A stretch of DNA of 64,000 nucleotides from Cohaesibacter celericrescens (GTDB taxonomy: Bacteria > Pseudomonadota > Alphaproteobacteria > Rhizobiales > Cohaesibacteraceae): NCBI RefSeq assembly GCF_002866925.1, contig NZ_PKUQ01000050.1, forward strand, positions 1-64,000, written 5' to 3'. Below the pieces are notes generated by a model that saw only the letters and a program-made list of their open reading frames with translations, made no database searches and was not told the DNA's origin. The translations under genes were made by a program, and so were the position numbers. This document shows positions 16,029-29,515 of this stretch, in pieces (the first letter of the stretch is position 1; each line of letters begins with the position of its first letter).

Positions 16029-16394
<366 letters not shown>

Positions 16395-16460
16395 CTAATT
16401 CGCCCACAAGGCAAAGAAGCAGATTGTATCGTAAAGTATCGTTTCGAATCCTAGGCACCC

Positions 16461-16781
16461 TTAAGTGTTTAGAATCGAGCGGATCTCCAGCAAGGTTTCA
16501 TCGACAGCCAGCCGCAGCGCTTGCACCAGATTTTGAGTATCACCTTTACCAGCTTCCAACGCCTCCGCGGCATGGGCCACTTGCCAAGCCCCTATGCCTT
16601 TGGCCGCTCCCTTGATACTGTGAGCATACTCTTTGCGATCAACCACTCCCACATCCAATTGGCCAAGTTTCAACACCATTTGATCGGTGAACAATTGCAA
16701 AACCTCACGTTGGAGATCTTCATCTTCCATCGTTTGCCGCGCCAAATGATCGCGATCTAATATCACCGTCTGACTTTGCAT
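16461..16781 (-). CDS. Single-domain Hpt histidine phosphotransfer protein
   Basis: A protein of 106 residues, all-helical, with the Hpt signature AHSIKGAAKGIGAWQVAHAA. The phospho-accepting His is in AHSIKG (about residue 54), followed by the characteristic G-x-x-G turn. Hpt proteins shuttle phosphate between hybrid kinases and response regulators; no kinase or regulator is adjacent, so this is an orphan. The ATG at 16781 is preferred because gagggcgga precedes it; the frame continues eight codons upstream to a TTG at 16805. A ttaaccat sequence, like a CtrA half site, lies 68 bases upstream at 16849-16856. Confidence 0.85.
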   Translation of the reverse strand: MQSQTVILDRDHLARQTMEDEDLQREVLQLFTDQMVLKLGQLDVGVVDRKEYAHSIKGAAKGIGAWQVAHAAEALEAGKGDTQNLVQALRLAVDETLLEIRSILNT

Positions 16782-16805
16782 TCCGCCCTCACTGCCCAGC
16801 CTCAA

Positions 16806-17343: not shown

Positions 17344-20300
17344 ATGGTAAGAAAGTCTCCAAAGATTCAGGACCCGACAGAAGCGGCTTTGTCGGCAGTT
17401 GAAGATGCTTTGAAACTGGATTTCGATGTCTCAGAAGAGACTGGCGAAAGCAAATCCACAGACAGCGCTGTGACTTCACGCGATTCCCTATCAGACAATG
17501 GCTCAGCCACGTCTGATGCGAGAAGCAACAGGGTCAAACCAAGACCTGCCAACGACGATCAGCAGTCGGTCGGCCATTTGCTTCATGCTTTGCAGCAACC
17601 ACCCAGCTCAACACCCTATTGGTTTGCAACCCTGCTCTCTGGTGCCTGGTTCGCCATTGGCGGTGCAGCTTTCTATTTTGGGTTGGCCAAGGACCTCCTC
17701 GCCACGGGAGGCATGGATGCCCTTTTGACCTCTCCCACCGCATTGGCATCGCTTGCAGGGGTCGTCCTGCCCGTCATCCTATTCTTTATGATGGCTTATA
17801 TGATTGTCCGCTCGCATGAAATGCGTCAGGTCTCTTATACCATGACCGAAGTTGCCATGCGTCTGGTTGAGCCGGAAAATGTCGCCAAAGAATCTGTCGT
17901 TAACGTTGGACAAGCCATTCGCCGCGAAGTGGCTTCCATGAGTGATGGCATCGAACGGGCATTGGCCCGCGCTTCCGAACTGGAGGTGATGGTGCATAAT
18001 GAAGTGTCTTCACTGGAGCGCGCTTATTCAGAAAATGAATTGCGCATCCGCTCACTCATCGAAGAATTGATCACCCAGCGCGAAGCCATTGTTACCAACT
18101 CCGAGCGTGTGCGTGCATCAATCTCTGGCGCCCACACAAGCCTGACCGACGAGTTGAGCACATCAAGCGAATCTATCTCCAAAAGTGTTTCGGACGCAGG
18201 GTCACGCGTTACCTTGTCTTTGGCTGAAAAAGGCGAGCAAATCACCATTGCTCTGGCCAATGCAGGCGAGACCATGGTCAATGTCCTGTCCAACCGTGGT
18301 TCCGATCTGGTTGACCGCCTCTCTTCAACCGGTTCAAACGTTACTGAGTCGCTCTCGACAGCCGGTGAAAGCATCACCAATCAGCTCAACATGTCCGGCA
18401 CCGACATTTCCCAAAAACTGGAACTCACCGGTAGTGATCTGACCAGCCAACTCGCAAGCATTGGCCATGAAGTCACGGACCGTTTCATCGGAGCGGGTCA
18501 GGAATTGACCACAACATTGTCCGAAACCGGAGCCAATGTTACACAGAATATTTCGCAAGTCGGCGATGGCCTGAATGCCAATCTGAAGTCCATCGGTAGC
18601 GAAGTCACCGAGAATTTGGCCAACACCGGCGGCGCACTGACGCACGAGCTGAAAGAAATCGGCGCCAATGTTACCGGTAGCCTGACCGAGATCAGCACCA
18701 ATGTGACCACCAGCCTGACCGAAATCAGCGCCAACATGACCAATACCATGTCGGAGACCGGTTCAACGGTTGCCGAAAACATCCGCGAGCAAGGCACCCA
18801 GATTGTTACGGCGATCACCGAACGCTCTGCCGATGTTTCCGAAGCACTCAAAGGGACAGGCGACGCATTGTTGGTCGATTTGTCCTTGCGCGGCAACGAA
18901 ATCAACGAAAAACTGGATGAAACGGGCAGCAACATTGCCCATACCATTTCCGGTGCTGGCGACAGCCTCACCTTGAATATGACCGAAACCGGTACACGCA
19001 TTGCAGAAACCATCTCCAGTCAGGGCGACAGCCTCACAAGCAAGCTGGACCAAACGGCAGACCGTATACATCAGACCGTTACGGTCAAAGGCTCCGAGCT
19101 CAACCAGCAGCTTGAAGGCCATGCAACCAATCTGGGCGCAATCCTCGATGAGCGTTCACAATCCATGGGCACTTTGCTCGAAGGCCAGACCAACAATCTT
19201 ACAGAACGTCTCGATGAAGCGGCAGGCAAAGCAAGTCAGGCCCTCAACAGCCGTTCAATGGAAGTGACCGAACGTCTCGCAATGGTTGGCACCGAAATCG
19301 CCAAAGTCATAGCGCAACGTGGTAACAAAGTTAAAGAGCTGTTCGAGACGACCGGTGGCGAACTCACGGACGCCCTGCAAGGCCAGAGCGAGGCAATACG
19401 CCAAGCTATGGAAGAACGGGTCAAAGCCTTTGATGACGTCATTGGAGTACAGGGCACAAATCTGGTCAGCCACCTGGGTGACAGACTGGATACGCTCAGC
19501 CAATCCATGGACCAGCGCATCAATACGCTGGATCAAACCCTGTTTGCCCGTGCTGGCGAAATAGAAAGCATGCTGGACACCCGTCTGGAAGGCTTCTCTG
19601 TCAGTGTTTCAACCAAAGCACAGGAAGTGGCCAGCACTCTTATCAGCCACACCACCGGATTTGAAAAAGGTATCTCGGAACGCTTGGGCGGGTTCGAACA
19701 AAATATCTCCAGCCTAACGCAGACATTTGCCTCCAAGGCAGACACACTCAATACGACATTGGACGAACGCACATCCAAACTCGACGATACTTTGGATAAT
19801 CGTGCACGGCAGATCAACGAAACGCTGTTGGAACGCACCACCGACATTGCCGCGGCCTATTCCAAAGGGCAGAAAGACATCAACGAGAGTATGGACAACC
19901 GTCTCACGATGGTTGGCGACACCTTGTCCCGTCAAGCCCACGAGCTTACGGAAACACTTTCTGATCGTGTTGCCGAGATCAATGTCTCACTCGGTAGCAA
20001 AGTCTTTGAAGTGGCCGAAACCCTTGATAGCCGCTCGGCTCAAATCGAGGCTATTCTCAATGATCGCATGAACGCCATTTCGACCAATTTCGCGACAGAG
20101 AGCGCCAAAGCGCGCGATTCACTGGCTTCGACCCTCACCACCGCCAGCGCCGAAATCACCGAGAAAACAGAAAACTTCAATGCAGTTCTAGGCTCCCGGT
20201 CTGCCGAATTGTCCTCCATTTTGGATGAAAAAGGCAATGCGGTTGTGCATGCTCTGGACAGTCGTTCAGAAAATATCACCAGCACATTCCAAAAAGCGGG

Positions 20301-22464
20301 TGAAAGCATCATTCATAGTCTCGCAAGCCGCGGTGGTGAGATTGCTAAAGCTGTGGCTCAGGAAAGTGCCCGCGCTTCTCAGACTCTGGCTCAAACCGGA
20401 GAGAATCTGGTCGCAGCCATCACCGAGAACAGCACACGTGCAACAGAAACACTGGATCTAAGCGCCAGCAAAGCAGTTCAGGCAATCACAGAAAGCTCAG
20501 ATCGTTCTGTCGGTTCCCTAACCAGCAGCACAGAGCGTGCAGCACAAACGATGATCGCCAGTTCCGAAAAGGCGGTACAAACGCTGGAAGAAAGCACCAA
20601 CAGGACCCAGCAATCATTGGTCGCAACCTCTCATCAAGCTGTACAGACTTTGGAAGAGACCACCACCCGCACGCAAGAAACAATGTCTGCCAGCTCACAA
20701 ATTGCGGTTCAGGCACTTGAAGAGAGCACCAACCGTACCCAGCAATCACTGGCGACAAGTGCACAGCAGGCAGCAGAATCTCTCAGCCAAAGCTCCAGCG
20801 AAACACTTTCTGCAATGAATGAAAGTTCGCAGCGTACGGTCAATGCCCTGAACCTCAGTTCCGAGCAAGCCAAAGCCGCTCTGGAAGCGTCTTCCAGTAA
20901 TCTGGTTAAAGCAATCGCCCAGAGCAGCCATGATGCCATCATCGATCTGGACACCTCCAACAAGCGTCTTGTTGAAGCGATCCGAACCTCTGCCGAGGAA
21001 GCATCGCAGTCGATGAACAGCACCAACGAGTTGTTGCGCTCGGACGGAACCGAAATCGTAGAGCGCCTGAAAAATGCCAACGACACCTTGTCCGAGCTCT
21101 TGCTCAATGCTGGACGCAGCTTGTCGACCATAGAGACCAGCCTGTCAGCCCAGACCGGACAGTTCCGCGATGTTGTTGAAACAGTGGTTGCGGAAGCAGG
21201 CAACTCAACACAGCAGCTCACAAGTCATGTTCACGATTTGCGCAACGTCTCCAGTGGTATTCTTGGGCAAGTCGCATCCCTGACCGACAAATTCGAAGAA
21301 CAGGCCTCTGCATTGGTCAATACCACCCAACTGATGGAATCCACCAACCATCGCCTGGAAGGAACGACTGAGGAACGCCGCGCCATGTTGGCGTCCATGA
21401 CGGACGACCTCACACGACGCACCGAATCTATCGAGGCTGTGCTTAATAACTTCACCTCAATCATTGCAAGCACCCTTTCCACTGCGGAAGGCCGCGCACG
21501 CGATGTAGGCATGTTGCTCAGCCAAAGCACCGAAGGTGTTTCAAAAGAAGTGATGGATCAACTCGAGCAACTGCGTATCAGCGCCTCTTCCGAGGGACGC
21601 CGCGCAGCGGAATCCATCCGTGAAGTTCAGCGTGAAATGAGCGAAGAAATGGCTCAGTCCATGGCGGAAGCCAACGAGCGCTTTGAAAAGGCAACTCACG
21701 ACATTCGCTCAATCACACAAGAAGTGAAACGAGATCTAGATGCCACACGGGCTGAGCTCAAACATGGTCTTGCGGAACTACCCGGCGAAACGCGGGAAGC
21801 AACAGGCGCAATGCGCCGCGTTGTATCAGAGCAGATAGACGCTCTGAAAGAACTGTCGCGTGTGGTCCAACGCCACGGTAACAGCTTCGATACAGTGCCA
21901 GCTGAAAGGCCTGCCCAACGCCCTGCACCAGCGGCACGCACCTTGCCTCCTGTCCCTGTGCAACAACCGACCCGTCATCCAGAGCCGCAAGCGCCTGTAG
22001 CCCCTGCTCCAAGCAGCTATACCGCACCGGCACATCATGACGACGACGACAATCGGTCCGGTGGATGGGTTTCCGACTTACTGCGCCGAGCGTCCCAGGA
22101 AGACTCGATGCCACAACCCGGCGACGCTGCCGCTCTAGCCCCGCTGAGCAATGACATTGTCAGAGGAATCGATGGGTCAAATCAGTCTCTAGCTTGGGAA
22201 AGCTATCGTCGCGGCGAAGGGGGAAGCTTCACTCGTAGGCTCTACACTTTGAAAGGCCAACAAACGTTTGAGGATATTCGCACCCGCTATCAGCGTGACA
22301 ATGACTTCCGCACAACGGTGAATCGTTATGTTGCAGACTATGAGCGCATTCTCGATGACATTTCCAGAAAAGACCGTGATGGCTCGGCGACGATGAACTA
22401 TCTCACCTCCGAGACGGGCAAGGTCTACACCATGCTGGCTCATGCAAGTGGTCGCTTGGGCTAA
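17344..22464 (+). CDS. GPR/RgsE-like growth-pole protein, giant hendecad coiled coil
   Basis: A protein of 1706 residues. The hydrophilic N-terminus (1-90) is followed by two membrane helices at about 93-115 and 132-155. A very long region, about 275-1230, is built of 11-residue repeats of the type S-x-V/L-T-x-x-L-x-x-x-G, and further helices run to about 1515. Next come a Pro-rich linker (1517-1572) and a conserved C-terminal domain containing LAWESYRRGEGGSFTRRLYT and ending TGKVYTMLAHASGRLG. Databases often call such proteins kinesin-like or apolipoprotein-like. The architecture fits the Agrobacterium growth pole ring protein GPR and Sinorhizobium RgsE, which organise polar growth. That assignment rests on architecture and the remembered C-terminal motif. 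A bidirectional-looking terminator follows, and a CheZ-like gene converges on it. Confidence 0.78.
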   Translation: MVRKSPKIQDPTEAALSAVEDALKLDFDVSEETGESKSTDSAVTSRDSLSDNGSATSDARSNRVKPRPANDDQQSVGHLLHALQQPPSSTPYWFATLLSGAWFAIGGAAFYFGLAKDLLATGGMDALLTSPTALASLAGVVLPVILFFMMAYMIVRSHEMRQVSYTMTEVAMRLVEPENVAKESVVNVGQAIRREVASMSDGIERALARASELEVMVHNEVSSLERAYSENELRIRSLIEELITQREAIVTNSERVRASISGAHTSLTDELSTSSESISKSVSDAGSRVTLSLAEKGEQITIALANAGETMVNVLSNRGSDLVDRLSSTGSNVTESLSTAGESITNQLNMSGTDISQKLELTGSDLTSQLASIGHEVTDRFIGAGQELTTTLSETGANVTQNISQVGDGLNANLKSIGSEVTENLANTGGALTHELKEIGANVTGSLTEISTNVTTSLTEISANMTNTMSETGSTVAENIREQGTQIVTAITERSADVSEALKGTGDALLVDLSLRGNEINEKLDETGSNIAHTISGAGDSLTLNMTETGTRIAETISSQGDSLTSKLDQTADRIHQTVTVKGSELNQQLEGHATNLGAILDERSQSMGTLLEGQTNNLTERLDEAAGKASQALNSRSMEVTERLAMVGTEIAKVIAQRGNKVKELFETTGGELTDALQGQSEAIRQAMEERVKAFDDVIGVQGTNLVSHLGDRLDTLSQSMDQRINTLDQTLFARAGEIESMLDTRLEGFSVSVSTKAQEVASTLISHTTGFEKGISERLGGFEQNISSLTQTFASKADTLNTTLDERTSKLDDTLDNRARQINETLLERTTDIAAAYSKGQKDINESMDNRLTMVGDTLSRQAHELTETLSDRVAEINVSLGSKVFEVAETLDSRSAQIEAILNDRMNAISTNFATESAKARDSLASTLTTASAEITEKTENFNAVLGSRSAELSSILDEKGNAVVHALDSRSENITSTFQKAGESIIHSLASRGGEIAKAVAQESARASQTLAQTGENLVAAITENSTRATETLDLSASKAVQAITESSDRSVGSLTSSTERAAQTMIASSEKAVQTLEESTNRTQQSLVATSHQAVQTLEETTTRTQETMSASSQIAVQALEESTNRTQQSLATSAQQAAESLSQSSSETLSAMNESSQRTVNALNLSSEQAKAALEASSSNLVKAIAQSSHDAIIDLDTSNKRLVEAIRTSAEEASQSMNSTNELLRSDGTEIVERLKNANDTLSELLLNAGRSLSTIETSLSAQTGQFRDVVETVVAEAGNSTQQLTSHVHDLRNVSSGILGQVASLTDKFEEQASALVNTTQLMESTNHRLEGTTEERRAMLASMTDDLTRRTESIEAVLNNFTSIIASTLSTAEGRARDVGMLLSQSTEGVSKEVMDQLEQLRISASSEGRRAAESIREVQREMSEEMAQSMAEANERFEKATHDIRSITQEVKRDLDATRAELKHGLAELPGETREATGAMRRVVSEQIDALKELSRVVQRHGNSFDTVPAERPAQRPAPAARTLPPVPVQQPTRHPEPQAPVAPAPSSYTAPAHHDDDDNRSGGWVSDLLRRASQEDSMPQPGDAAALAPLSNDIVRGIDGSNQSLAWESYRRGEGGSFTRRLYTLKGQQTFEDIRTRYQRDNDFRTTVNRYVADYERILDDISRKDRDGSATMNYLTSETGKVYTMLAHASGRLG

Positions 22465-22572: not shown

Positions 22573-23805
22573 TTAACTGAAATCAGCAACACGGTCTCTT
22601 AAATCAGCAAGTCGCATTTCCATGTCTCCGACCATGACATCCCGCTCAGCCTTAGCATCAGACTTATCCGCTTTAGCAGAAGCAAATACATCTGCATCAG
22701 CGCTGTGCACATCAGAACCAGTGAGAACTTTTGCTTGCGCAGAAGCCTCTTCATTCTGCTGACCTGTTTCCTCAACAAGGGCAGAAGCAAAAACATCCGC
22801 CTCTTCCATTTTGTCGTTTGACGACACAGCGACAGCATCTACCGTTTCAGTCGCCCAATCGAGATCGTTCATGTCAAGAGTGGCAAACTCGACGGTCTCA
22901 GCAGTCAATTCCGAGATCGGCTCATCAGCGGTAACGGAGGTTTCAGAATCGGTTTCGGTTTCTATGGAGTCAAAATCAATATCAATCGATGCATTGTCAA
23001 ACACATCAGTTGCATCCGCAACATCTGACATCTGATCAAAAAGAGCATCGACATCATCTTGACTGGAATCATGTTGTTCCGCAGATTGACTCAGGATCAC
23101 ATCCACATCACTCTGCTCAACACCTTCACCATTCAGAGAAGGGCCATTAAGCAAGTGGGAATCAGGGCGCGCATCCTGAGATTTGGCCTGTGTATGATCA
23201 ATCTCAACACCTTGGGATTCAAATCCCCAGATGTTGATCATGGAATTGATGCGGGTTTCAACATAACTCATCGCATCTACGATTTTCTTGATACGTTGCC
23301 CTGTCAAATCCTGGAATGAACAAGCCATATAGATATTTGTTGCTTCACCATCCAACGCATTGCAATCTTCTTCATTGGCGCCCTGTTCACGTAAAGTCCA
23401 AGCATATTCCTGAATCTTTTCAGCAGCACCGAGAATTTCACTGGTCGCGTTTTCAGTCTGGGAAACAATGGCATCCAGTTCGACGGTTGCTCGCTCAAAG
23501 CGCTCGGCACCATCGTTGTCTTCGTGCTTGATCTGAGCAATTTCCAGTTTGGTTTTTTCAATGGCGGCCGCCATATCCGCCAGATCCAGCTTAACCCGGT
23601 TCATCACAGACGCAGGAGCACGCTCACGAACAACTGATTTTTCCAGTTTATCTATCGCGTTTAATAGAGTATCTGTATCAGCATTCCGATTTCGTCTCGC
23701 ATATTCCGACAAGAACCACCGACCTCGAGCGGTCTCCATCACAGCGGCTTCAATTGCCAGATAGTCCTCTTGTCTCAGAGGTGTTGGTGGCATGGGCTTG
23801 CTCAT
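22573..23805 (-). CDS. CheZ-like protein with long acidic tail
   Basis: A protein of 410 residues. The N-terminal half is helical and includes the CheZ-type signature SFQDLTGQRIKKIVDAM (about residues 170-186); in CheZ this segment carries the residues that dephosphorylate CheY-P. The C-terminal ~210 residues are strongly acidic and rich in Asp, Glu, Ser, Ala and Val, with no recognisable fold. The ATG at 23805 gives the N-terminus MSKPMPPTPLRQEDY; a GTG four codons upstream (23817) is equally possible and neither has a strong ribosome site. It is convergent with the growth-pole gene, sharing a terminator. No che operon is nearby, so a role in chemotaxis is inference. Confidence 0.7.
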   Translation of the reverse strand: MSKPMPPTPLRQEDYLAIEAAVMETARGRWFLSEYARRNRNADTDTLLNAIDKLEKSVVRERAPASVMNRVKLDLADMAAAIEKTKLEIAQIKHEDNDGAERFERATVELDAIVSQTENATSEILGAAEKIQEYAWTLREQGANEEDCNALDGEATNIYMACSFQDLTGQRIKKIVDAMSYVETRINSMINIWGFESQGVEIDHTQAKSQDARPDSHLLNGPSLNGEGVEQSDVDVILSQSAEQHDSSQDDVDALFDQMSDVADATDVFDNASIDIDFDSIETETDSETSVTADEPISELTAETVEFATLDMNDLDWATETVDAVAVSSNDKMEEADVFASALVEETGQQNEEASAQAKVLTGSDVHSADADVFASAKADKSDAKAERDVMVGDMEMRLADLRDRVADFS

Positions 23806-23924
23806 CTGTTTGACCACAATCCTATAGTAATTGGCTCGAATCAGCGTCTGGATTACGCATATTCATACTCAGATGCTACAGCCGAATCCTTAACGTTTTT
23901 TTACTTTTCATCAGGCGGCCCAAA

Positions 23925-25130: not shown

Positions 25131-25315
25131 AACACCGAGCACCATAAAATCGTGACGAAACCATCGATCTTTCCTTGCCTCACAGTAAGGATGTGGGGCA
25201 TGTAACACATGAGAAAAGCCTTCCTATCGACAGATTCTTGCGTCATTATAAAGCAAGCATCAATCCCAAGGAGCTGGCTAAAATCAGGACCTGTGACCGA
25301 AGCGTGAGACCGAAC

Positions 25316-26482
25316 ATGACTCCAGACAAGATCGACCAAGGAGCACAGATCACAACGGTCTTTCAAACACCACAAATCGTGTTGGGGAACGCTGGCGCCG
25401 AAGGCACCCTTTTTATCAAAGGTGACTGGACGATTGAGACCATCAAGGACGCCGACAAACTTGTCTCCGATGCCTTTCAGCAACAGTTACATCCCACTGC
25501 TATTGATTTCTCGGATCTATCAATCCTGGATACATCGGGCGCTTGGGTGATTGTGCGCCTTATGCGCGGATTAAATCTAGAACTCTTCGCGACAAGCCCA
25601 ATCCAATCTGACCACCGCATTCTGTTTGATGCCGTGTGGCAAACCAACCGCGTCCAGCCCCAAACCCAGCCTCCCCCCAATATGTTTATACAAGCCGCCG
25701 AACAAACAGGCCGTGATGTATTCGAAATCTATAAAGACATCAAAATTCTGACCTTTTTGATGGGCAGCGTGATCGCTGGTTTGGTGCAAAGTCTGATTAA
25801 TCCGCGTAAGCTGCGCATAACCGCCATTGTGCATCATCTCGAACAAACCGGTCTGAAAGCTGTTCCTATCGTTGCAATGATGTCCTTTCTCGTCGGCGCG
25901 ATTGTTGCTCAGCAAGGGGCATTCCAACTTCGCCAGTTTGGGGCCGAGCCATTTGTGATTGATCTGGTTGGCATTCTGGTGTTGCGCGAAGTCGGTATTT
26001 TGCTAACGGCCATTCTCGTTGCGGGCAGATCCGGTAGTGCTTTTACGGCAGAAATCGGCTCCATGAAAATGCGCGAAGAAATTGATGCCATGCGCGTCAT
26101 GGGTCTGAATGTAACGCAAGTGCTCATCACGCCACGCGTGATCGCCCTTGTTATTGCTCTGCCCTTGTTGGGGGTGGTGGCCAACTTCTCTGCCTTGTTT
26201 GGTGGCGGGATATTGCTTTGGGTTTATTCAGATATAACGCCCATTGCCTACATCAACTGGTTGCGAGAAGCGATCGCTGTCAACACATTCATGGTTGGCG
26301 TTATCAAGGCGCCTTTCATGGCTTTGATCATCGCGCTGATCTCCTGTTCAGAAGGTCTTCAAGTCGGAGGCAGTGCAGAATCTCTAGGTCGTCGCACAAC
26401 AGCAGCGGTCGTGAAATCCATTTTCCTGATGGTTCTTGTCGACGGCGTCTTTGCCATTTTCTTCGCAGCCATTGGATATTAG
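25316..26482 (+). CDS. mlaE: MlaE-family lipid ABC transporter permease with STAS domain
   Basis: A protein of 388 residues. The N-terminal ~100 residues form a STAS-like domain (IDFSDLSILDTSGAWVIVRL), fused to the MlaE permease. Permease segments include VPIVAMMSFLVGAIVAQQGA, VLREVGILLTAILVAGRSGS and the coupling region EIGSMKMREEIDAMRVMG. With MlaF and MlaD it moves phospholipids between inner and outer membrane leaflets. The fusion with STAS is common in alphaproteobacteria, where a separate MlaB is absent. The ATG at 25316 is chosen since the STAS fold starts soon after; the frame continues upstream to a TTG at 25175. Eleven bases separate it from mlaF. Confidence 0.9.
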   Translation: MTPDKIDQGAQITTVFQTPQIVLGNAGAEGTLFIKGDWTIETIKDADKLVSDAFQQQLHPTAIDFSDLSILDTSGAWVIVRLMRGLNLELFATSPIQSDHRILFDAVWQTNRVQPQTQPPPNMFIQAAEQTGRDVFEIYKDIKILTFLMGSVIAGLVQSLINPRKLRITAIVHHLEQTGLKAVPIVAMMSFLVGAIVAQQGAFQLRQFGAEPFVIDLVGILVLREVGILLTAILVAGRSGSAFTAEIGSMKMREEIDAMRVMGLNVTQVLITPRVIALVIALPLLGVVANFSALFGGGILLWVYSDITPIAYINWLREAIAVNTFMVGVIKAPFMALIIALISCSEGLQVGGSAESLGRRTTAAVVKSIFLMVLVDGVFAIFFAAIGY

Positions 26483-26492
26483 GGAAGATTGC

Positions 26493-27305
26493 ATGACCGT
26501 AAATAATCTTCACCAGCATTCTAAACCCGGAGCAGGCAATCAGGACGATATCCTGCTTGCTGTGCGCGGCCTAACGGTCGGCTTTGGTGATCGGGTGATC
26601 CTTGAGAATCTGGATTTGGACGTCAGACAAGGCGAGATTATCGGCATTGTTGGCGCCTCCGGCACCGGTAAGTCGGTCCTTCTGCGCGCCATCCTTGGCC
26701 TCACCCCAAAACAGAGTGGAACCTTTATTCTGTTCGGTCAGAATACAGACCAGCTCAAAACGGCTGAACGCATGAAGATTGAGCGCAAACTGGGCGTATT
26801 GTTCCAACATGGTGCGCTTTTTTCTTCGCTGTCAGTGTTGCAAAATATTCAGGTGCCAATGCGCGAATATCTTTCGTTGCCCAAGCGCCTCATGGATGAA
26901 TTGGCAATCTCCAAACTTGAACTGGTCGGACTGTCCCCTGACGCAGCCCACAAGCACCCGTCAGAGCTGTCAGGCGGCATGATCAAACGAGCCGCCCTAG
27001 CCCGCGCGCTCGCGCTCGATCCCGACATGGTGTTGTTGGATGAACCAACCTCCGGTCTAGATCCAATCAGCGCCGAAGAGTTTGATGACCTCATATCCAA
27101 ACTCAGAAACACTTTGGGCCTGACTGTTTTTATGGTAACTCATGACTTAGACAGCCTGAATCAAGCCTGCGACCGTATTGCCGTTTTGGCAGAACGTCGG
27201 GTCCTGACGACAGGCACCATGCACCAAATGCAAAACAATGATCACCCCTGGATCCGGAAGTATTTCACCGGCAAGCGCGCCATCCGACAGTGGGACAGGA
27301 ACTGA
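26493..27305 (+). CDS. mlaF: MlaF-family lipid ABC transporter ATPase
   Basis: A protein of 270 residues with Walker A GASGTGKS (54-61), ABC signature LSGGMIKRAALARAL, Walker B MVLLDEPTSGLDP and the switch histidine in MVTHDLD. LSGGMIKR is the variant typical of Mla/Ttg2A ATPases. It powers lipid transfer by MlaE. The ATG at 26493 has agggaag six bases upstream; the frame runs further upstream into the end of mlaE but lacks family features. It is followed after three bases by mlaD. Confidence 0.92.
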   Translation: MTVNNLHQHSKPGAGNQDDILLAVRGLTVGFGDRVILENLDLDVRQGEIIGIVGASGTGKSVLLRAILGLTPKQSGTFILFGQNTDQLKTAERMKIERKLGVLFQHGALFSSLSVLQNIQVPMREYLSLPKRLMDELAISKLELVGLSPDAAHKHPSELSGGMIKRAALARALALDPDMVLLDEPTSGLDPISAEEFDDLISKLRNTLGLTVFMVTHDLDSLNQACDRIAVLAERRVLTTGTMHQMQNNDHPWIRKYFTGKRAIRQWDRN

Positions 27306-27308
27306 CAC

Positions 27309-28706
27309 ATGGAAACCAAAGCCAACTTTATACTCATTGGCCTGTTTACCCTGCTGTTGACCGCAGTCGGCTTCGGCTTTGTCTTTTGGATCGCACGTTA
27401 TGATGACGTGAAGCCAATGAAAGAAGTCATTGTGCGCTTTGAAGGCTCTGTAGCAGGGCTTTTCAAGGGAGGGCAGGTTCAGTTTAACGGCATCAAAGTC
27501 GGTGAAGTCTCCAATCTCAACTATGATCCTATCAATCCAAAATATGTAAAAGCCCATCTGCTGGTGGATTCAGAGATCCCGCTGAAACAAGACAGCAAAG
27601 TCGAGCTTGCCTTTCGCGGCCTAACTGGCGTTGGCAATGTCGAGATCAAAGGAGGCACACCAGAGCTTCCAGATCTGCTGGATCAGGAGAAAGTGCCACA
27701 ATTGATCGCCACCAATTCTGCCATGCAGGACTTGATGTCCGGTGCACGGCAAATACTAACACGCGCCGACACTCTTCTGGCCAAAGTAGAAGACGTGGTT
27801 GATACCAATGAAAGCAGTATCAAAAATTCAATCAGCAATGTCGAGACCTTCACCGCTGCCCTGAAAAACAATGCCGGCAACATAGATACATTTCTTGCAG
27901 ATGCCTCTGGAGCAGCAAAAGGCCTGACGTCTTTATCCGCCCGTCTTGAAACACTCAGCGACAAAGCGGAATCGCTTCTGGCCGCAGTTGACCCCAAAAG
28001 CATTGAGAACAGCGTCGAAAATGTCGAAAAATTCAGCCAAAAGCTGGCAAGTGCATCCGAAAAGTTTGATGTGGTTGTCGAAGATGCGTCTGAAGCGGCA
28101 AAAGGCATCAACCAATTCTCGGCAAGCCTGACCACCTCATTGAGCAAAGTCGATACATTGGTTGAAAGCGTTGATCCAAATGTGGTCCGCACTGCGGTGG
28201 CTTCTTTGGGAACCTTTGCAAAGTCTCTCGAGACTTCTTCCAGCGATATTGACGCCATCCTGTCCGAAGCCAAACTGGCTGCCGGCAACATCAATACCTT
28301 TTCCCAAACAATGTCGTCACGCACAGAAGACTTCAATACGATCATAACCGATGCCAAACAGCTTGCATCTCGCCTTAACGCCGCATCCAAGCGCGTCGAC
28401 GGGATTCTGGGCAAAGTTGATGGCATCCTGTCGGATGAAGAAGGTGGCAAAGGCTTGGTACAAGAAGCCACCTTGGCAGCCCGTTCGATTCGCATCGTCG
28501 CAGAACGCTTTGAATCGCGCGCTGATGAAATTGCCAGCGGATTGGCCCGCTTCTCGGGCAAGGGCCTGCGTGATGTGGAAGGCATGGTTTCGGAGGCGCG
28601 CCAAACACTTCGGCGCCTTGAAGGAGCTGTTGGGAAGCTGGAAGACGACCCGTCAAGCCTGATTTTTGGTGGCAACAAAGTCAAAACCTTCAACCGTCGC
28701 CACTAA
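27309..28706 (+). CDS. mlaD: MlaD-like MCE-domain protein
   Basis: A protein of 465 residues. The N-terminal anchor helix is NFILIGLFTLLLTAVGFGFV (about 6-25). An MCE domain at about 38-117 contains FEGSVAGLFKGGQVQFNGIK and LTGVGNVEIKGG. A long C-terminal helical region follows (about 135-465), rich in Ala, Ser, Asp and Lys. It is longer than E. coli MlaD (about 180) because of that helical extension, as usual for alphaproteobacterial MCE proteins, which may form a periplasmic tunnel or needle. It binds the periplasmic face of MlaEF and passes phospholipid. The gene begins three bases after mlaF. Confidence 0.9.
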   Translation: METKANFILIGLFTLLLTAVGFGFVFWIARYDDVKPMKEVIVRFEGSVAGLFKGGQVQFNGIKVGEVSNLNYDPINPKYVKAHLLVDSEIPLKQDSKVELAFRGLTGVGNVEIKGGTPELPDLLDQEKVPQLIATNSAMQDLMSGARQILTRADTLLAKVEDVVDTNESSIKNSISNVETFTAALKNNAGNIDTFLADASGAAKGLTSLSARLETLSDKAESLLAAVDPKSIENSVENVEKFSQKLASASEKFDVVVEDASEAAKGINQFSASLTTSLSKVDTLVESVDPNVVRTAVASLGTFAKSLETSSSDIDAILSEAKLAAGNINTFSQTMSSRTEDFNTIITDAKQLASRLNAASKRVDGILGKVDGILSDEEGGKGLVQEATLAARSIRIVAERFESRADEIASGLARFSGKGLRDVEGMVSEARQTLRRLEGAVGKLEDDPSSLIFGGNKVKTFNRRH

Positions 28707-28861
28707 CCCGTCCCAACGCTCACTGCAGCGTGATGTGGAGATGCCTCGTTGAGATCATCTCGGGTGGCACGATGAAGTCTTCTGCAAATATGTGGCAAAA
28801 TCGCATAAATCCATCAAAAATCCGCCCAAAACGTCAAAAAGAAGTTGGTTTGTCCGGCCAC

Positions 28862-29515
28862 ATGGTTAGAGTAGGCGCCATTGGGTTTCGGGTATTTGAG
28901 GTTCTGCGTTTGTTTGGTTTTCGGTCATATGCAAGGTATTTTGCCATCATCGGTGCGTGCACCATACTGGCATCCTGCTCGTCCCTCACAGGTGGCAAGG
29001 AACTAACCACCTATGACCTCAGCGCGCCGGACAATTTCTCCAATTTGCGAGGGCGGACAAATGCGCAAATTCTAGTCGCAGTTCCGACCGCTCTGAAGTC
29101 TCTGGACAGTGAGATGATTGTCGTCCGCCCCGGTGGATCGGAAATAACCTATTTTGGTGATGCCCAGTGGAGTGACCGTCTTCCTCGTGTTGTTCAGGAA
29201 AAGCTGGTTCAAACGTTTGAAAATTCCCACCGAGTGCGTTCTGTTGCCAAACCGGGCGATGGTGTTGTGGTCGATTACAAAATCGTCACATCCATTCGTG
29301 CATTTGAGCTAAGCGATGAAGCTGGAGCTTCGGCTCACGTGGCTCTTTCAGTCAAAATCATCAATGACCGCAATGGTCGCGTCCGCGCTTCCAAGCAATT
29401 CAACGCTACATCGCCAGCCAATCTGAGCAACTCTCAAAAGGGTGTCGAGGCCATCGATCGTGCCATGGATGTAGTGTTACGTGACATCTTGGTTTGGGTG
29501 CTAGACACGATTTGA
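28862..29515 (+). CDS. ABC-type transport auxiliary lipoprotein of the Mla system
   Basis: A protein of 217 residues with a type II signal: hydrophobic FAIIGACTILASC, giving a lipidated Cys within the first 40 residues if the ATG at 28862 is used. The mature domain starts TTYDLSAP, typical of the ABC_trans_aux/PqiC-like family that accompanies MCE transporters in alphaproteobacteria. Upstream in-frame ATGs at 28772 and 28730 would place the Cys too far in for a usual lipoprotein signal, although the ATG at 28772 has the better ribosome-site spacing, so the start is uncertain. It is the last gene of the mla operon and probably sits at the outer membrane. Confidence 0.75.
   Translation: MVRVGAIGFRVFEVLRLFGFRSYARYFAIIGACTILASCSSLTGGKELTTYDLSAPDNFSNLRGRTNAQILVAVPTALKSLDSEMIVVRPGGSEITYFGDAQWSDRLPRVVQEKLVQTFENSHRVRSVAKPGDGVVVDYKIVTSIRAFELSDEAGASAHVALSVKIINDRNGRVRASKQFNATSPANLSNSQKGVEAIDRAMDVVLRDILVWVLDTI

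Follow-up and report, generated by a model that had tools for sequence, protein, structure and literature searches.

A predicted hendecad-repeat rod in the GPR/RgsE protein of Cohaesibacter celericrescens and other Hyphomicrobiales, with length differences mostly in units of 11 residues among close relatives

What is the very long helical middle of GPR/RgsE, and what constrains its length? GPR/RgsE, although poorly understood, is central to the organisation of polar growth in the Rhizobiales, and its middle part has so far been treated as apolipoprotein-like. The DNA analysed here, referred to as the window, is a stretch of 64,000 nucleotides from Cohaesibacter celericrescens (contig NZ_PKUQ01000050.1), and it includes a single open reading frame at 17344-22464 (+) that begins with ATG and encodes 1,706 aa. 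An earlier note, made from the sequence alone, placed this protein in the GPR/RgsE family and described long arrays of 11-residue repeats (hendecads) in it. The parts of the gene are as follows, with the basis for each in brackets.

17344..22464, + strand: gpr/rgsE ortholog, 1,706 aa (open reading frame and comparison with RgsE)
17551..18123, + strand: membrane (N) domain, residues 70-260 (match in 195/199 genomes of the order)
17620..17685, + strand: likely first membrane helix, approximately residues 93-114, weakly hydrophobic (predicted hairpin; below the hydropathy cut)
17752..17808, + strand: second membrane helix, residues 137-155 (hydropathy)
18082..19713, + strand: hendecad block 1, residues 247-790, 544 residues in one phase (autocorrelation and HMM)
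18655..18742, + strand: 33-bp tandem array, 2.7 copies (DNA tandem-repeat search, score 40)
19714..21024, + strand: hendecad block 2, residues 791-1227, 437 residues, phase +7 relative to block 1 (HMM)
21025..21780, + strand: mixed hendecad/heptad tail, residues 1228-1479 (autocorrelation and HMM)
21661..21888, + strand: conserved tail block, residues 1440-1515, which holds Pro1480 (Pro1480 in 115/115 proteins)
21889..22140, + strand: Pro-rich linker (the interval containing it has no mod-11 pattern)
22141..22461, + strand: C-terminal all-helical domain, residues 1600-1706 (no convincing Pfam match)

The family assignment made in the earlier note was borne out by direct comparison with RgsE of Sinorhizobium meliloti, and no placement in another family was obtained. 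The sequence used for RgsE was the 2,089 aa protein annotated as a kinesin in S. meliloti record CP090106.1, and 2,089 aa is the length given for RgsE in PMC7327166. This 3.7-Mb record is titled plasmid pSymB and carries both rgsE and cytochrome c1, and is probably a mislabelled chromosome. The window protein and RgsE are 45.9 % identical over 196 columns in the N domain, 49.3 % over 67 columns in the tail block and 48.7 % over 152 columns in the C domain (whole-protein BLASTP, E = 4e-85). RgsE and GPR resemble the window protein in having a membrane domain, a very long helical middle, a tail block with the same Pro and a C-terminal domain, and upstream of S. meliloti rgsE as well as of the window gene there is a divergent Hpt-domain gene and, beyond it, a 2Fe-2S ferredoxin gene. 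RgsE also has an 11-residue periodicity (z = 8.1 at lag 11 and 11.3 at lag 22), and the distance from its N-domain anchor to the conserved Pro is in class 1 modulo 11, as in the window protein. Judged by sequence, the window protein is an ortholog of S. meliloti RgsE and hence, by the literature, also of Agrobacterium GPR. However, it is shorter (1,706 aa versus 2,089 aa for RgsE and 2,115 aa for GPR), and its hendecads are purer, with a period of 3.665 and a power of 138 compared to 3.655 and 50 in RgsE for hand-chosen stretches.

In the literature, apolipoprotein-like domains and 21-residue coiled-coil segments are described for GPR/RgsE, and RgsE is described as repeat-containing (PMC7327166 and others); we found no description of hendecads in either. 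According to PMC8262873, GPR is a polar protein that forms a 200-nm ring of six foci, and it is predicted to have a membrane anchor and to lie mostly in the cytoplasm. TolQ, RgsA and RgsS are named as interaction partners of RgsE (PMC7327166), and GPR is said to be similar (PMC8546619) or analogous (PMC13170164) to TipN, a polar protein of Caulobacter.

The N domain matches 195 of 199 genomes of the order Hyphomicrobiales, once in each except for the window's own genome, and the four genomes that lack a match are 56-88 % complete. The closest named matches are from Cohaesibacter (80 % identity). The window's genome carries the gene twice with 100 % identity on two contigs (C1:228613-233730 and C46:17344-22461, the latter at the window's own coordinates), which probably reflects a redundant assembly, as genome completeness is 91.5 % and contamination 8 %.

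For comparisons within the order, 120 loci were fetched. These were picked from the approximately 150 best matches, taking about one per genus and then further members of genera, and the weakest families are under-represented. The rod statistics exclude six loci that lack an in-frame C domain (four reach a contig end and two look frameshifted), and the remaining 114 full-length relatives together with the window make up the 115 proteins used. Loci L068 and L123 encode the N and C domains of GPR in separate reading frames, likely owing to a frameshift or sequencing error. The neighbouring genes that recur in these loci are listed below as found in the window.

16029..16349, - strand: 2Fe-2S ferredoxin (homologue within 2.5 kb in 111/120 loci)
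16461..16805, - strand: Hpt-domain protein, single domain, divergent neighbour (homologue within 2.5 kb in 89/120 loci)
25175..29515, + strand: MCE/Mla-type lipid transport genes, namely permease, ATPase, MCE protein and auxiliary lipoprotein (Pfam)

The ferredoxin and Hpt genes (16029-16805, -) are divergent from gpr and upstream of it, and a phosphorelay link to polar growth is possible. Directly downstream of gpr is a gene for a CheZ-domain protein (22573-23817, -); CheZ-like genes were seen in 47 of the 120 loci at varying distances, upstream in five of them.

The N-terminal region was claimed to contain two helices that anchor the protein. The second (residues 137-155) is clear from hydropathy. 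The first falls below the hydropathy cut, and what supports it is a predicted helical hairpin and the family. In the predicted structure of the N domain (mean pLDDT 86, pTM 0.40), this hairpin is followed by a single helix that enters the repeat. At the other end, the C domain is predicted to consist of six helices (mean pLDDT 93); it has no convincing match in Pfam (53 members scanned; best E = 0.0058, single members only) and no match in PDB at E 0.001.

Between these ends, the 11-residue rhythm that the earlier note had placed at about residues 275-1230 was confirmed, and the motifs and end points it gave are right to within about 30 residues. Identity autocorrelation over residues 275-1230, with z scores calculated against 200 shuffles, peaks at lag 11 (z = 12.7) and its multiples (23.5 at lag 22, 14.6 at lag 33, 14.1 at lag 44 and 13.8 at lag 55), while z is 1.4 at the heptad lag of 7. 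Over the same residues, hydropathy peaks at 3.66 residues per turn, equal to 11/3, with a power of 86.5 where the expectation is about 1. If the protein is laid out with 11 residues per line, the register can be recognised by eye from residue 259 onwards. A cyclic 11-state HMM, for which the window protein was the starting point and the family the training set, assigned 981 residues (247-1227) to the repeat in two blocks, 247-790 and 791-1227, separated by a single phase change of +7 (equivalent to -4) near residue 790. Past residue 1227, the spacing is a mixture of 11 and 7 as far as the conserved Pro1480. In the HMM profile, columns 1 and 8 are 94 % and 86 % I, L, M, V or F, column 5 is mostly small residues and column 4 is Arg in 30 %. 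Residues 247-1227 include no Pro, Trp or Cys.

It had been suggested that hendecads would explain apolipoprotein-like labels, and the best stretch for the Pfam Apolipoprotein label (PF01442) is indeed in the hendecads. PF01442 scores 175.6 bits on the whole window protein, against a cut-off of 90, and single stretches in a six-frame search are below the cut-off. A second frame of 742 aa with Apolipoprotein-type matches is found in the same genome (G000:C8:542537-543544, -). The helices of apolipoproteins A-I, A-IV and E and of perilipin 4 are amphipathic and based on 11 residues. The window protein differs from these in that it is predicted to be membrane-anchored and cytoplasmic, and in having N and C domains with no convincing Pfam match. 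In other profile libraries, the hendecad region is labelled ZorA (best match to the rod, 6.7e-28). However, the PADLOC matches to ZorA are at their best within residues 331-1037, in the rod/repeat only, and no MotA/ExbB/TolQ-type motor domain was found in the window protein by Pfam at E 0.01. As the Pfam hits include no MotA/ExbB-type domain and the best-matching stretches are in the repeat only, identification as ZorA of a Zorya system was rejected. The likeness is that ZorA is also a membrane protein and has a long helical rod in the cytoplasm, and an extended pentameric rod is reported for it from cryo-EM and models (PMC11890865). By analogy, a helical rod of this kind, cytoplasmic and anchored in the membrane, can be pentameric, and ZorA would be something that works in a like manner, not a relative.

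The hendecad rod is widespread in the Hyphomicrobiales. Among the first 95 loci, the open frames are 862 to 2,752 aa (measured from stop to stop and hence upper bounds), and in 89 of the 95 proteins identity autocorrelation is strongest at lag 11, 22 or 33. At lag 11, z exceeds 5 in 86 of these, compared to six at lag 7. The best hydropathy period is 3.655-3.68 in 70/95, and the shortest proteins tend to about 3.62. Among the 115 proteins, the repeat is phase-locked to the membrane domain: its start phase relative to the N-domain anchor is identical in 111. The longest run in a single phase has a median of 682 residues and a maximum of 1,652, and is at least 500 residues in 75 proteins and at least 1,000 in 35; it was never above 32 when the rods were shuffled. 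The rods have a median Pro count of zero and a median net charge of -6.2 per 100 residues (5-95 % range, -8.0 to -0.4).

Phase changes between adjacent blocks are almost all in classes 3 (n=352), 7 (n=196), 10 (n=90) and 6 (n=62), with ten in class 4, a single one in class 8 and the remaining four classes empty, although it should be noted that the HMM profile was trained on the same proteins and that its two hydrophobic columns, 7 apart, favour the calling of shifts of 7. Classes 7, 3, 10 and 6 correspond to one to four heptads modulo 11. Phase changes of this type are consistent with coiled-coil behaviour, short of proof.

Two landmarks were used to examine length, an N-domain anchor column, which is Glu in 91 of the 115 proteins, and Pro1480, which is found in all 115. 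The distance between them ranges from 276 to 2,178 residues across the order, about eight-fold. Modulo 11, these distances concentrate in class 1 (n=35) and class 5 (n=32), with p = 3e-23 by a chi-square test that treats related proteins as independent. By the same test, with kinship likewise ignored, the distribution modulo 7 is flat (p = 0.93), and the smallest p among the tried moduli that are not multiples of 11 is 0.004 (modulo 18).

Comparison within genera limits the effect of shared ancestry and is a better test than the chi-square on 115 proteins. Of the steps between distinct lengths within genera, 24/38 are multiples of 11, and the null has a mean of 6.3, an sd of 2.1 and a maximum of 16 in 20,000 draws. 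The other 14 steps do not follow the rule. Five genera (g30, g36, g42, g45 and g63) have no steps in class, and phase changes are more frequent in the rods from these genera that were looked at. The control interval, which holds the Pro-rich linker, has 7/44 steps in class (raw count) and is flat overall (p = 0.64).

The six proteins from the window genus have five lengths and are all in one mod-11 class. Their alignment has gaps of 22, 22, 22, 44, 55, 77, 88 and 99, all eight multiples of 11, a result that holds at three of four gap costs, the lowest cost giving 7/9. Pairwise counting also gives one gap of 17 and one of 50, which we attribute to overlap between the gaps of two rows. Named loci gave a similar distribution. 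Both landmarks are present in 72 of 82 proteins (80 named loci, RgsE and the window), and class 5 accounts for 33 and class 1 for 17 of the 72, noting that several named loci are from the same genomes as in the 115-protein set and that unlabelled genera, including Afifella, were pooled and only counted. Taking each genus by itself, one class includes 12/12 Roseibium proteins (8 distinct lengths), 5/5 from Stappia (5 lengths), 3/3 from Pannonibacter (3 lengths), 3/3 from Phreatobacter, 2/2 from Labrenzia and 4/5 from Pseudovibrio. In Pleomorphomonas and Xanthobacter, 2/3 each are in class, those two being equal in length. The loci of family f24, for which the matches listed include Bartonella, Liberibacter and Pseudochrobactrum, have mixed 11/7 rods. 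Among close relatives, length changes mostly in units of 11.

The distribution outside the order was surveyed in a sample of 240 genomes of the class, which includes three or more genomes of the order itself. The N domain was found in 40 of these and the C-domain profile in 88, and protein length is very variable. From the best N-domain hits, 20 loci outside the order were taken, and 18 have both domains at i-E 1e-6. A hendecad signal, defined as z > 4 at lag 11, was found in none of these 18 (highest 3.7), and 16 have a hydropathy period of 3.57-3.62. Because these relatives have the two domains and no lag-11 signal, the hendecad rod looks like an elaboration made in the Hyphomicrobiales between two older end domains.

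We consider it probable that the protein is a membrane-anchored, nearly straight cytoplasmic helix, likely to bundle with itself, that forms a stiff strut at the growth pole and whose register is conserved. Columns 1 and 8, with the mostly small column 5, would provide an unbroken stripe along which parallel copies could pack, and this stripe is narrow, as would suit the packing of helices. At 0.15 nm per residue, the 981 residues would make a strut of approximately 147 nm that starts at the inner membrane, projects into the cytoplasm and has the C domain at its distal end; beyond the flexible Pro-rich linker, that domain would hold partners from the growth machinery. Gain or loss of 11 residues would alter the length of the strut by about 1.6 nm with the register kept, and any length change other than a multiple of 11 would rotate the C-terminal end about the long axis with respect to the membrane end. 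Heptad-sized phase shifts, which are also common, would displace the stripe only a little. The oligomeric state and handedness attributed to the rod, and its role in the ring, are what we infer.

It is unlikely that the rod is instead a giant amphipathic helix lying along the inner membrane and organising lipid at the growth pole, in the style of perilipin 4 or apolipoproteins, although 11-residue repeats are typical of such helices, as in perilipin 4. Pfam labels the stretch Apolipoprotein, and the best PDB sequence match of the window protein is apolipoprotein A-IV (E = 4e-5). However, the label depends on the library, two of them giving ZorA, the stripe of bulky hydrophobic residues is narrow (two columns of eleven) and the rods are net acidic, which disfavours lying on an anionic membrane. 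What keeps this reading alive is the presence of the MCE/Mla-type genes near gpr, the best contextual hint of a lipid link. A permease, MCE or auxiliary homologue is within 8 kb downstream in 67/120 loci, and the association is found in 23/36 family labels, where six unplaced loci are pooled under one label. These genes are convergent with gpr in most loci and co-directional in the window. A link of GPR to lipid synthesis has been proposed by those working on GPR (PMC8262873), and the MCE system of Brucella, Mpc, is said to be conserved in the Hyphomicrobiales (PMC12436622); the names RgsE and GPR do not occur in the accessible part of PMC12436622. Still less probable is a ruler of fixed length that sets the diameter of the ring or its distance from the pole. 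The part of the window protein from the anchor to Pro1480 would measure approximately 185 nm if fully helical, compared to the 200 nm given for the GPR ring in Agrobacterium (PMC8262873). However, this distance varies from 276 to 2,178 residues across the order and from 1,156 to 1,409 residues among the likely Cohaesibacter relatives, and a fixed ruler is unlikely as length varies widely while the phase is kept.

Duplication of units as the cause of the 11-unit rule is a serious alternative. Unequal exchange between repeat units would add or remove whole units, and the rule would then be merely mutational, with no selection on register; we regard this as a real possibility, if somewhat doubtful. 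The best self-match is in phase in all seven indel segments examined (at overlapping sites), and three of the seven are above the background maximum (22 aa, 0.64 versus 0.45; 22 aa, 0.86 versus 0.77; 77 aa, 0.48 versus 0.47), but the segments of 44, 55, 88 and 99 residues are not. The gene includes a 33-bp tandem array, but this single short array was all that was detected, with no other DNA-level tandem repeat in the gene at score 40. The phase changes are also non-random, being almost wholly in the classes equal to 1-4 heptads. Selection on the register of the strut is thus a tentative reading. It is possible, though doubtful, that the GPR-type chassis (membrane hairpin, coil and C domain) is spread over much of the class and that the giant rod added to it in the Hyphomicrobiales can vary about eight-fold in length, largely in steps of 11 with rarer heptad shifts, because the register between the membrane end and the end that holds the growth machinery has to be preserved.

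If that were true, loss of 22 or 33 residues from a pure hendecad block would be tolerated, and loss of 20, 21 or 25 would not. For a pure hendecad rod, a deletion of 20 residues was calculated to turn the downstream stripe by approximately 164 degrees and one of 21 by approximately 98 degrees, and one of 22 keeps it in place. Coiled-coil deletions in GPR given as 20 or 21 residues are reported to cause severe defects beside wild-type GPR (PMC8262873). However, the A-IV-1 deletion in Agrobacterium GPR, which removes 20 residues of coiled coil, is reported there to give significant complementation, with paired foci when expressed alone. In at least one case, therefore, GPR largely tolerates a deletion whose length falls outside the multiples of 11. 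We also note that one deletion is given in PMC8262873 both as 413 to 433 and as 413 to 434, i.e. 21 or 22 residues. The published deletions leave a strict 11 rule undecided and partly speak against it.

A hendecad rod that changes length mostly in units of 11 provides a concrete structural rule for this organiser of polar growth and accounts for the misleading database labels. It sets the rod of the Hyphomicrobiales apart from the end domains, which are spread more widely in the Alphaproteobacteria, and register becomes a directly testable variable in the existing depletion strains.
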